Under the pieces are notes generated by a model, which was given only the letters and a program-made list of their open reading frames with translations, did not search any database and had not been told where the DNA came from. Positions 17,181-23,946 of a stretch of 59,036 nucleotides of DNA are shown here, piece after piece. The first letter of the stretch is position 1. The number at the start of each line of letters is the position of its first letter. This stretch comes from Candidatus Pacearchaeota archaeon. Lineage in GTDB: Archaea > Nanobdellota > Nanobdellia > Pacearchaeales > GW2011-AR1. The stretch spans positions 1 through 59,036 of the forward strand of contig JAGVXA010000003.1 in NCBI GenBank assembly GCA_018304025.1. Reading direction: 5' to 3'. The position numbers and the translations under genes were made by a program.

Positions 17181-17702
17181 TTATTTGAACTTCGTCGAGA
17201 AGTTTTCCTCCATATGATTGATTATTTCTTCTTTGGGAATTGACTGCTTGTGCGAGACTTTTCCTGCCTTGATTTTTTTTCTTTTTACTCTTAGTCCTGG
17301 GCGTGCGAAAACAACTGTGACATTTAATCCCCTAATTCCAATTTCTCTCTGGTATTCTACTCCTGGAATTTCAATGTACTCGTGAATGCCGAAGGAGAAA
17401 TGATTTTCAGAGATTTGCCTTTTTTTCAGAGTGTTTTCTATTGCGCCAAGTAACTTTTTTAATAATTGAGTTGCTGTTTCTCCCCTTAGTGTTATACTTG
17501 TTCCAACTTCTAAGCCAGGACGAACGCCAAAGTCAGGGATTCTTTTTGTCGACGCGACTCTCTGGGGTTTTCCTTTTGACAAAATTTCCAAAAGTTTTAC
17601 TGACTTGTCCAAATCAACTCCGACAGCTGCGCAGCTAAGAACAACTCTCTCGATTTTTATTTTTCTCATTGGGTTTTCTGTCATTAATTCTTGGGTTGTC
17701 AT
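17181..17702 (-). CDS. 50S ribosomal protein L5 (uL5)
   Basis: 'NPMRKIKIERVVLSCAAVGVDLDKSVKLLEILSKGKPQRVASTKRIPDFGVRPGLEVG'. Confidence 0.94.
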   Translation of the reverse strand: MTTQELMTENPMRKIKIERVVLSCAAVGVDLDKSVKLLEILSKGKPQRVASTKRIPDFGVRPGLEVGTSITLRGETATQLLKKLLGAIENTLKKRQISENHFSFGIHEYIEIPGVEYQREIGIRGLNVTVVFARPGLRVKRKKIKAGKVSHKQSIPKEEIINHMEENFSTKFK

Positions 17703-18316
17703 ATTGCGATTAAATTAGATTTGTTTAGTTCTACTGTTCCTTCTTTGAGTTTGACTTTCACTTTGTTTTCTTCGACTGATTCTATTTTTCCTTTTTTGCC
17801 GACGTATTTTCCGCTTGAGACAAAGCATTCTTTTCCTTCTTCCATCGAAACTGTTTTTATGATTTTATTTTCTGGAGAAAGATAGATTGTGTCGTTTGTG
17901 CTGATTTTTTCTTTTGCCAGGATGTTTGAACCGTCGTGAAGATTTAACTGGATTTTATTTCCGTTGAGAAGAGATTTATTTATGACTTTGCAGATTCTTT
18001 CTTTTGATTTTGAGGGTTCAAGATTGAATCTGTTATTTTCTGTTAATGTTAAAATATACGGCTTGTCTGCTTCGAAAATGTTCAGGAGTTTTATGCTTTC
18101 TCTGTAATCTTTTACTTCCTTGCCGTTGATTTTCAGAGATTTGTTTTTAATCATGTGCTTTACTTCTTTTGAAGTTCTTGCTAGTTTCAGCATGTCTCTT
18201 ATGGCTATTACTACGGGAATAGAATTTTGAATGTGGGACGAGGGCCTTGCTATGTATTTTGTTCCTTTTCTTCTGATTGGTAATTTTTTAGAGGTTTCTG
18301 CTCGCGTTTGGTACAT
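17699..18316 (-). CDS. 30S ribosomal protein S4e
   Basis: 'LPIRRKGTKYIARPSSHIQNSIPVVIAIRDMLKLARTSKEVKHMIKNKSLKINGKEVKDYRESIKLLN'. Confidence 0.94.
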   Translation of the reverse strand: MYQTRAETSKKLPIRRKGTKYIARPSSHIQNSIPVVIAIRDMLKLARTSKEVKHMIKNKSLKINGKEVKDYRESIKLLNIFEADKPYILTLTENNRFNLEPSKSKERICKVINKSLLNGNKIQLNLHDGSNILAKEKISTNDTIYLSPENKIIKTVSMEEGKECFVSSGKYVGKKGKIESVEENKVKVKLKEGTVELNKSNLIAI

Positions 18317-18317
18317 T

Positions 18318-18536
18318 TTATTTACTTCTCCTTTCTGTGATACTTTCTAATCCCGCAATAATTTTTTGTGACTTTTTATGTTCTAATTCTGCGCGTAATT
18401 CTGAGGAATATAGATGAATGTCGCTACCACATGTTAGATATGAAAGTCCAAAACCACAGGTACATATACCATTTTCTGGCCTACCCTTTGCTAATGCATC
18501 ATAAATTGTGCAATTTGTACTATGACCTATATTCAT
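18318..18536 (-). CDS. Small putative metal-binding protein, paralog A (H...C...CTCG)
   Basis: 'MNIGHSTNCTIYDALAKGRPENGICTCGFGLSYL...YSSELRAELEHK'; start set at internal ATG 18536, just downstream of the paralog's stop. Confidence 0.7.
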   Translation of the reverse strand: MNIGHSTNCTIYDALAKGRPENGICTCGFGLSYLTCGSDIHLYSSELRAELEHKKSQKIIAGLESITERRSK

Positions 18537-18537
18537 T

Positions 18538-18735
18538 TTATTTTTCTCCTTGAGCAAGACGATTTAATTTATTTTGAGATTCTAATTTTGCACGCAATTC
18601 TTTTGAATATATTTCTGAATAGTCTTCAAGTCTTGCCTGCTGTAGTGCATAACCACAAGTACATATGCCGTCTTCAGGACTGCCATTGTTTAAAGGGGAA
18701 TAAATTGCACAAGCCCCGTCGTGATTGTATTTCAT
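18538..18735 (-). CDS. Small putative metal-binding protein, paralog B
   Basis: 'NHDGACAIYSPLNNGSPEDGICTCGYALQQ...YSKELRAKLESQ' parallels the adjacent ORF. Confidence 0.7.
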   Translation of the reverse strand: MKYNHDGACAIYSPLNNGSPEDGICTCGYALQQARLEDYSEIYSKELRAKLESQNKLNRLAQGEK

Positions 18736-18802
18736 TTGTTTTCCTATTGGTTTCTTTCTTCGATTCGCTCTTGCTCGCTCTTCCTCGAAACTCGTCGGCT
18801 CG

Positions 18803-19207
18803 CTACGACGAACGAAGAGAAGAAGATTTTTCAGAGCCGAGTTTCTTTAGTCTTTCTTTATCGTCTAAATTCAGGGCTTGGATTTGGAGGGAACTTGGAT
18901 GAAACCAAACTGCAACTTTTGTTCCGTCTTTCTTTGTCCTGTTTATATTTTCAAGGGAAACCCGCGTTCTCTTTAAATCGATTTGCTCGATTTTTGCTTT
19001 CTTCTTCTTGAAGGAACCGCGCATAACAAGCACTTCATCCCCTTTCCTTAGGGGAAGACTACGTTTGCTATGCTTTTGTCTTAATGACTTTGAAAGATTT
19101 GAATTTAAAAACTTATGCCTTGTATGTAATGGTGCGTTGTGTCTGAATTTTCTCTGCTTTCTTGGTTGAACGCTTGATTTCCAGGAGGATGTGAATTTTC
19201 TTTTCAT
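18803..19207 (-). CDS. 50S ribosomal protein L24 (uL24)
   Basis: 'HNAPLHTRHKFLNSNLSKSLRQKHSKRSLPLRKGDEVLVMRGSFKKKKAKIEQIDLKRTRVSLEN'. Confidence 0.93.
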   Translation of the reverse strand: MKRKFTSSWKSSVQPRKQRKFRHNAPLHTRHKFLNSNLSKSLRQKHSKRSLPLRKGDEVLVMRGSFKKKKAKIEQIDLKRTRVSLENINRTKKDGTKVAVWFHPSSLQIQALNLDDKERLKKLGSEKSSSLRSS

Positions 19208-19208
19208 T

Positions 19209-19514
19209 TTACGCTGTTGCCTCCTTCTTTAATTGAATTGCGGATCTGGCTTTCCCCGGCGAGTTGATTTTTGCTTCTATGGACAAGACCTTATTAATTT
19301 CTCTCCGTTCATACTCTCTAAAACCTTCACCGGTAGCACCCTCAAAAACATCTAATGCTCGCAGAATCATCTCTCCGTAAAATTGTCTAATCGATCTTTT
19401 TGTAGAATCTGATAGATTTTCTCTTGAGATTGCGCCCCTATAACATTGATAATAATCATTGATATTTTTTATTACCATAGTTGCTATTTGTATGTCTTGT
19501 TGAGTTGTTTTCAT
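19209..19514 (-). CDS. Small uncharacterised protein between L24 and L14
   Basis: 101-aa ORF, 4-nt overlap with L14 and 1-nt gap to L24. Confidence 0.6.
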   Translation of the reverse strand: MKTTQQDIQIATMVIKNINDYYQCYRGAISRENLSDSTKRSIRQFYGEMILRALDVFEGATGEGFREYERREINKVLSIEAKINSPGKARSAIQLKKEATA

Positions 19515-19912
19515 AATACAAACTGAGCAATCTTAGCCACAGACGGCCAACGCTCCTGGACCTCCCTTGCTACTGGACCTTTAATCTGAGTTCCTTTTGG
19601 GTTTCCTTTTTCGTCTTTTAACAAAGCTACTGCGTTGTCTTCGAAGCAGACTCTTTCTCCAGTTAATCTTCTGTATGGTTTTTTCTGGCGGATAACTATT
19701 GCGTCGAAGACTTGCCCTTTCATGTCTAATTTTCCTGCTCTGACTGAGACTTTGACGTGGTCTGCGACTTTTGCGTATTGCTGTCTTCCTTTTGTTGATT
19801 TTCCGTGCTTCACTCCGGTTATTCTTACAATTCTTGCTCCGCTGTTATCTGCTGCGACGACGTTTGCGCCGAGGTTTAATCCGCGTGTTATTTTTGCTGT
19901 TATTGCTTTCAT
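19511..19912 (-). CDS. 50S ribosomal protein L14 (uL14)
   Basis: 'LNLGANVVAADNSGARIVRITGVKHG...VSVRAGKLDMKGQVFDAIVIRQKKPYRRLTGERVCFEDNAVALLKDEKGNPKGTQIKGPVAREVQERWPSVAKIAQFVL'. Confidence 0.96.
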   Translation of the reverse strand: MKAITAKITRGLNLGANVVAADNSGARIVRITGVKHGKSTKGRQQYAKVADHVKVSVRAGKLDMKGQVFDAIVIRQKKPYRRLTGERVCFEDNAVALLKDEKGNPKGTQIKGPVAREVQERWPSVAKIAQFVL

Positions 19913-20154
19913 GCTCTTGCTCTCCTAGGGATTTCAATTATTCCTGAATCTTGATTAAATATACAGTCGAGATATTTTTGCGGCTGCGAGCAGACAGTAA
20001 AGAATTGATCTTCAGTCAGCCCTTTGGCGCATCCTTCATAAGAAAGAGGGCAGATGCCATAATTATCTTGGATTTGATTTCCTGCTCTTCTACTCTCTTC
20101 CTGCTCTGCTATTGCTGCGCTTTCTAATAACGATTTGTTTGCAAGAGGATTCAT
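19909..20154 (-). CDS. Small four-Cys protein between L14 and S17
   Basis: 'GICPLSYEGCAKGLTEDQFFTVCSQPQKYLDCIF'; 4-nt overlaps with both neighbours. Confidence 0.6.
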   Translation of the reverse strand: MNPLANKSLLESAAIAEQEESRRAGNQIQDNYGICPLSYEGCAKGLTEDQFFTVCSQPQKYLDCIFNQDSGIIEIPRRARA

Positions 20155-21728: not shown

Positions 21729-21980
21729 TTATTCTGATTGGCTCCTTGTTTCTGTTATTGGAAAACGGGCTGGTTTTAGAGTTATCATTCTTCCACCTTT
21801 GCGACGATTGCTGCCCGAAGCGTGGCCTCTGTAATAAATAGTTATCCCGTTATTTGGACCGATTGCTTCGTTGTAGGTTCTTTGATGGATATTTAGATAT
21901 CCTCCGAGCGGACGAGTCATGCAATTAATCCAATTAATCTGCTCGTCGTTAAGTTCTACTGGTCTTTGTTGTGTTTCCAT
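21729..21980 (-). CDS. Small uncharacterised protein between S3 and L22
   Basis: 83-aa ORF with 1-nt spacing on both sides. Confidence 0.6.
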   Translation of the reverse strand: METQQRPVELNDEQINWINCMTRPLGGYLNIHQRTYNEAIGPNNGITIYYRGHASGSNRRKGGRMITLKPARFPITETRSQSE

Positions 21981-23682: not shown

Positions 23683-23946
23683 TTATTTTCTTACTCCATT
23701 TAACAACTGATTTAAATTTACAGCGTAAACTCTTCTGTCTATATCTCTGTCAAGCGGATCGTAAAATCCTGGCTTAGAGTTTGTCAAAAATCCATCGCAA
23801 ACAAGCCGCCCTATAACGCCTTCGCCTGCCTGATAAATAAAGCTCCACTCTCCTCTTGGGTCTTCTTCTGAAGAGATGAATCTCCCTTTAATTTTTCTTT
23901 CTGTTCCGTTTGCTTCAATTACCGGGAGTTCTACATAATTTGCCAT
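23683..23946 (-). CDS. Small uncharacterised protein between L2 and L23
   Basis: 87-aa ORF, 1-nt spacing on both sides. Confidence 0.6.
   Translation of the reverse strand: MANYVELPVIEANGTERKIKGRFISSEEDPRGEWSFIYQAGEGVIGRLVCDGFLTNSKPGFYDPLDRDIDRRVYAVNLNQLLNGVRK

Follow-up and report, generated by a model that had tools for sequence, protein, structure and literature searches.

A virus-shared family of predicted metal-binding microproteins encoded between the L24 and S4e genes of some Pacearchaeota

Comparable small proteins and the gene pair of the window

The closest described systems are small proteins from archaea, phages and plasmids. Most of 16 deletion mutants of haloarchaeal C(P)XCG zinc-finger micro-proteins have phenotypes, with an effect on swarming for HVO_0758 and HVO_2753 (PMC10716476). 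The Haloferax proteins of this type can bind zinc, another metal or none, and AF2 does not reveal which (PMC11241148); this advises caution in deducing zinc for the proteins described here. The F plasmid encodes TraR, a protein of 73 aa that has homologues in phages and reprograms transcription in the host (PMC9239242).

The window, i.e. the whole stretch of 59,036 nucleotides analysed, belongs to a Candidatus Pacearchaeota genome of 0.99 Mb, 88% complete. ORF calling confirmed a minus-strand gene pair, A and B, between the genes for ribosomal proteins L24 and S4e; the flanking genes L24, S4e, L14, L5, S17 and L2 were checked by Pfam. The elements of this region are the following:

17699..18316, minus strand: S4e, downstream neighbour (PF00900, 1.7e-14)
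18318..18536, minus strand: gene A, 72 aa from ATG, paralogue of B (MNIGHSTNCTIYDALAKGRPENGICTCGFGLSY...YSSELRAELE)
18318..18340, minus strand: Shine-Dalgarno-like AAGGAG within the 3'-terminal part of gene A, before the S4e start
18538..18735, minus strand: gene B, 65 aa, ATG start, H-x3-C...C-x-C microprotein (MKYNHDGACAIYSPLNNGSPEDGICTCGYALQQ...YSKELRAKLE)
18541..18560, minus strand: Shine-Dalgarno-like AAGGAG within the 3'-terminal part of gene B, ahead of the ATG of A
18756..18817, boundaries approximate, minus strand: palindromic repeat at the border of L24 and gene B, a divergent copy of one dispersed in the genome
18803..19207, minus strand: L24, upstream neighbour (PF16906, 5.1e-25)

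An alternative TTG start at 18557 gives a 79-aa version of A. The two products had been described as tandem paralogues in the sequence-only reading, and BLASTP bears this out, by aligning them without gaps over 54 aa with 24/54 identities (44%, E 6e-16), far above chance. The pair is old, since its codons differ at all three positions (30/23/31 changes). B is a typical member, 64% identical to the copy of a related genome, G123, and 58% to that of the viral contig L022. A is the fast-evolving copy, with a long branch in the gene tree; it shares 43-49% identity with the other copies from archaea and with L022, and 26-40% with the remaining viral copies. A and B are the only family copies in their genome, the tandem arrangement was seen in this genome only, and the pair may have come either from a duplication at this site or from two separate arrivals. 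One nucleotide separates B from A, and A from S4e; as AAGGAG motifs are contained in the tails of B and A, ahead of the starts of A and S4e, translation is likely coupled from B to A and from A to S4e.

The last residues and the stop codon of L24 are encoded by the palindromic repeat copy. About a dozen copies of this repeat (~45-60 bp, near TCTTCGTTCGCCGACGCGAGTACTCGAGCAAGAGCGAATCGAAGA) are found across the window's genome (G000, loci L243-L258). Several are located at tRNA 3' ends, where 14-24 bp of tRNA 3'-end sequence is duplicated on either side, a pattern such as integration at tRNA genes would leave. The repeat was considered as an insertion vehicle for A and B, and rejected because the corresponding junctions of four other genomes (G067, G115, G118, G123) are tight and lack it.

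The pair resembles the C(P)XCG micro-proteins in being archaeal, about 70 aa or less in size, and in combining a CxCG knuckle with a predicted metal site. C(P)XCG micro-proteins contain two C(P)XCG motifs (four Cys), whereas A, B and their relatives have one CxCG and one H-x3-C, together with a conserved YS..EL tail and viral relatives; the two-motif, four-cysteine arrangement was not found in A or B. The two groups have no Pfam family in common, and are set apart by their descriptions. Lar-like restriction-alleviation proteins (PF14354, phrog_599) are short Cys-rich accessory domains of phages, and in this they resemble the viral members of the family. Lar is a separate domain: A, B and the standalone viral members match neither model, and the only match, slightly under the cut-off, lies in the N-terminal part of a viral fusion described below. 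DksA/TraR-type mini-regulators are a model, by analogy only, for how a protein of this type could act; no Pfam match links them to A and B, and the ligand pattern is different.

Neither A, B nor the family profile matched any family in Pfam, NCBIfam, PHROG, PADLOC or PDB, the last searched by sequence profile; the best Pfam match of A/B (0.054) was discarded as a chance hit. Since PADLOC models match 0/16 family members, these were not found among known anti-phage defence proteins. Comparison of the G115 and G118 genes gave a dN/dS of about 0.28 (one pair, 60 codons), which supports real coding under purifying selection. The protein family is real, and has no name in the libraries searched.

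Conservation, distribution and viral relatives

Alignment of 15 archaeal and viral members revealed that His5, Cys9, Cys25 and Cys27 (B numbering) are identical in 15/15. Conservation of these residues had been set beforehand as the check on which the claim of a metal site depended, and all four ligands are kept, in copy A as well. The core invariants are H, C, Y, G-I-C-x-C-G and S. Both A and B fit the family definition, consisting of the invariant H, C, C and C, GICxCG and YS..EL. The threonine of GICTCG is dispensable, as G118 has ICICG, and the YSxELRAxLE motif is kept merely as YS..EL, in which Ser alone is invariant.

The compact metal site proposed from A and B is strengthened by the invariant H-x3-C-x(~15)-C-x-C set, metal binding itself being predicted from sequence alone. 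One His and three Cys at this spacing would fit a single tetrahedral site, and the family is probably one of single-metal microproteins. AF2 models, built from 15-16 sequences, show no confident fold, with a pLDDT of 58 for B and of 69 for the copy of G123. They contain two low-confidence helices, one after CxC and one over the YS..EL segment (46-59, local pLDDT about 71); the latter weakly favours the C-terminal helix that had been suggested at YSxELRAxLE, for a motif now reduced to YS..EL. Foldseek comparison of the models against PDB and BFVD gave no match below E 5.

Within the order, 200 genomes were searched. Intact copies were detected in 7, including that of the window, and the gene is absent from about 96%. 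The six further carriers (G002, G061, G067, G115, G118, G123) all belong to one GTDB family of Pacearchaeota, and the named records of the relatives are Candidatus Pacearchaeota. No further members were found in samples of 378 genomes from the class and 371 from the phylum. A scan of genome contigs with a narrow pattern gave three loci; bacterial chromosomal copies may exist beyond its reach.

In G067, G115, G118 and G123 the gene is located between L24 and S4e, as in the window, for a total of five genomes in four scattered lineages. In G002 it separates the alpha gene of a 2-oxoacid:ferredoxin oxidoreductase from the beta gene, and in G061 it is found near the beta gene of such an enzyme, one unknown gene away. 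G061 has no insert at L24-S4e, and in most siblings within the carriers' genera L24 directly abuts S4e. The alpha and beta oxidoreductase genes are also split elsewhere by other genes, GNAT-like or for small membrane proteins as judged by eye (L222, L225, L227, L228, L241). Weak partial matches with stops in G074 and G131 are possible decayed fragments; that of G131 (L275), near a ribosomal protein L10-like ORF, reads NGICICGFAFA with stops (E 6e-4) and is either a decayed copy or a chance match.

The sequence-only reading had advised looking for the family in phages. Relatives were found in environmental viral contigs, while tblastn against isolate phages and plasmids gave nothing credible. 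Nine viral contigs were collected by IMG/VR scans (L028 nearly duplicates L029, and L030 is truncated at its end), and the seven records searched whole all score E 4e-25 or better. The gene is near portal and head-morphogenesis genes in L022, near a large terminase and methyltransferases in L024, and near a primase in L026; the portal, head-morphogenesis, terminase and primase genes are those of tailed viruses. In L023, L025 and L028 the family domain is part of a longer protein: in L025 it forms the C-terminal end of a 300-aa protein, and in L028 a long N-terminal region, coiled-coil-looking by eye, precedes it. The L027 protein is a fusion, whose N-terminal part is a Lar-like restriction-alleviation domain (PF14354 3.9e-6, just under the curated cut-off; phrog_599 1.9e-8).

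The GC content of the viral contigs, which are fragments, is 0.42-0.57 in most cases, suggesting that most are not from Pacearchaeota viruses; several, with GC 0.47-0.57 and methyltransferase-rich regions, appear more like bacterial phages. The L022 and G123 copies are 74% identical, above every archaeal pair except G115-G118, which strongly hints that the gene has moved between viruses and archaea.

Inserts in the ribosomal protein operon

The region around S4e was analysed in 141 genomes of the GTDB family, by locating 12 genes of the operon by tblastn and by recording as an insert any open frame of at least 38 codons; the rule is mechanical, and the resulting counts include some false inserts. 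The median L24-S4e gap is 1 nt in the 141 genomes. Inserts were found at every junction, for about 169 occupied junctions (loci L074-L210). Occupied cases at seven junctions are reported below:

L23-L2: inserts in 31/124
L2-S19: inserts in 19/124
L22-S3: inserts in 14/123
S17-L14: inserts in 30/137
L14-L24: inserts in 31/139
L24-S4e: inserts in 11/141
S4e-L5: inserts in 9/139

A tandem duplication of such a microprotein between S4e and L24 had been considered unusual. As for the position, so many occupied junctions show insertion to be ordinary, and the placing of small genes between core genes is a general feature of this Pacearchaeota family. Most inserts are genome-specific singletons (orphans), and few of 150 match Pfam or PHROGs, the Pfam matches including HAD, NUDIX and HD. 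The CxC family is the most recurrent true insert family, with six copies in five genomes, exclusively at L24-S4e. A 25-member cluster at S3-SUI1 was left out, because it corresponds to L29 missed by tblastn.

Four more inserts are contained in the window:

19209..19514, minus strand: 101-aa orphan, between L14 and L24
19909..20154, minus strand: 81-aa orphan, between S17 and L14; in G002 a relative occupies this junction
21729..21980, minus strand: 83-aa orphan, between L22 and S3
23683..23946, minus strand: 87-aa orphan, between L23 and L2

The 19909-20154 orphan and its G002 relative (L074) share a conserved CP..YE.C pattern; as they come from two members of the genus, some inserts are common within a genus. 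Some insert families also move between junctions of the operon, and a second tandem pair of paralogous inserts, of 147 and 145 aa, is located between S4e and L5 in G116 (L083, 7641-8570). No viral relatives were found for the orphans 19209-19514 and 23683-23946, so that a general viral source of the inserts is unsupported. No earlier report of such operon inserts in DPANN was found in the literature searched, which does not prove that none exists.

Origin and possible function

In a midpoint-rooted tree of nine ribosomal proteins, the five genomes with the gene at L24-S4e represent four lineages that coalesce only at the root of the family sample; parsimony requires 4 gains, or 1 gain and about 20 losses. 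If the gene landed as other inserts do, the probability that four lineages share this junction would, counted after the first landing, be about 5e-5. Such a coincidence is improbable and needs a cause, be it old residence followed by loss, site preference, or exchange among archaea through recombination within the neighbouring L24 and S4e genes. The gene tree is weakly resolved, no branch reaching the strict support cut-off. It groups G002, G061 and the viral L022 (UFBoot/aLRT 93/92, under that cut-off), next to G123 (92/94).

The best reading is that of a virus-shared, metal-binding microprotein, horizontally acquired and probably not ribosomal. Patchy presence, the similarity of L022 to G123 and occurrence in viruses were all counted for horizontal acquisition, viruses being the most likely source for Pacearchaeota. 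The opposite direction, in which a gene ancestral at L24-S4e in this Pacearchaeota family was lost many times and viruses took copies from their hosts, agrees with the shared position in four deeply separated lineages, and one gain with about 20 losses would suffice given the high turnover of operon inserts. Plain parsimony prefers the 4 changes as gains, several viral carriers are bacterial-phage-like in GC and methyltransferase content, as far as this can be deduced, and the G123 copy is closer to L022 than to the other operon copies; host ancestry is considered rather unlikely.

The constant position also agrees with a lineage-specific, dispensable factor, associated with the ribosome or regulating translation, which would owe its place to ribosome assembly or to autogenous control of the operon: recurrence at one identical junction in four lineages is very unlikely by chance, the family is found at no other junction of the operon, and translation is likely coupled with that of S4e. 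Copies at the oxidoreductase locus in two genomes, G002 and G061, and in at least seven viral contigs show that the family has no fixed link to the ribosome. The gene lacks the lineage-wide conservation of a ribosomal protein, with intact copies in 7/200 genomes versus 145/147 for S4e, and unrelated NUDIX, HAD and HD genes occupy neighbouring junctions, making a ribosomal role distinctly unlikely. Sporadic presence, the fast evolution of A and the stop-containing matches of G131 and G074, possibly decayed fragments, would suit a virus-derived passenger, selfish or neutral, with no selected role in the archaeon; four ligands invariant even in A, and the dN/dS of the single 60-codon G115-G118 pair, leave this explanation very unlikely.

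The preferred reading, horizontal gain of a virus-type zinc microprotein that is housed in core operons and acts in trans outside the ribosome, is held as a whole with slightly better than even confidence. Each protein would probably bind one zinc ion through His5-Cys9-Cys25-Cys27 and carry a C-terminal helix. In tailed viruses the domain would serve as an accessory protein, either on its own or joined to other accessory domains, and Pacearchaeota would have gained the gene by horizontal transfer, most likely from viruses. As small accessory genes commonly sit exactly between core-operon genes in this archaeal family, the operon-housed copies would be co-transcribed with their neighbours, with translation presumably coupled through nested Shine-Dalgarno sequences. 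The lineage of the window has two diverged versions of the gene, of which B is typical and A evolves fast. In the weakest step, the product is most likely a trans-acting, non-ribosomal zinc adaptor that would bind protein or nucleic acid, of the host-takeover, anti-restriction or virus-interference type. Methyltransferase-rich regions in viral carriers and the Lar fusion make anti-restriction or virus interference the preferred guess, drawn from context and given on its own well under even odds. A bolder proposal, regarded as rather doubtful, is that a family of metal microproteins exchanged with viruses repeatedly enters, or is exchanged into, the L24-S4e junction of Pacearchaeota, as one case of a wider tendency of these archaea to keep foreign small genes between the genes of core operons, and that the host gains a trans-acting function, e.g. 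virus interference, through expression from the ribosomal operon.

Position in the operon is itself common in these genomes, although the L24-S4e site is constant for the CxC family. What is new is a virus-shared protein family missing from the libraries searched, and an operon, conserved according to textbooks, which is widely broken by small genome-specific genes in about 140 genomes of one Pacearchaeota family. Location within the ribosomal protein operon is consequently a poor guide to function in these genomes. If core operons of DPANN archaea are landing sites for foreign genes, they would be a place where virus-related genes may be sought and their function tested.
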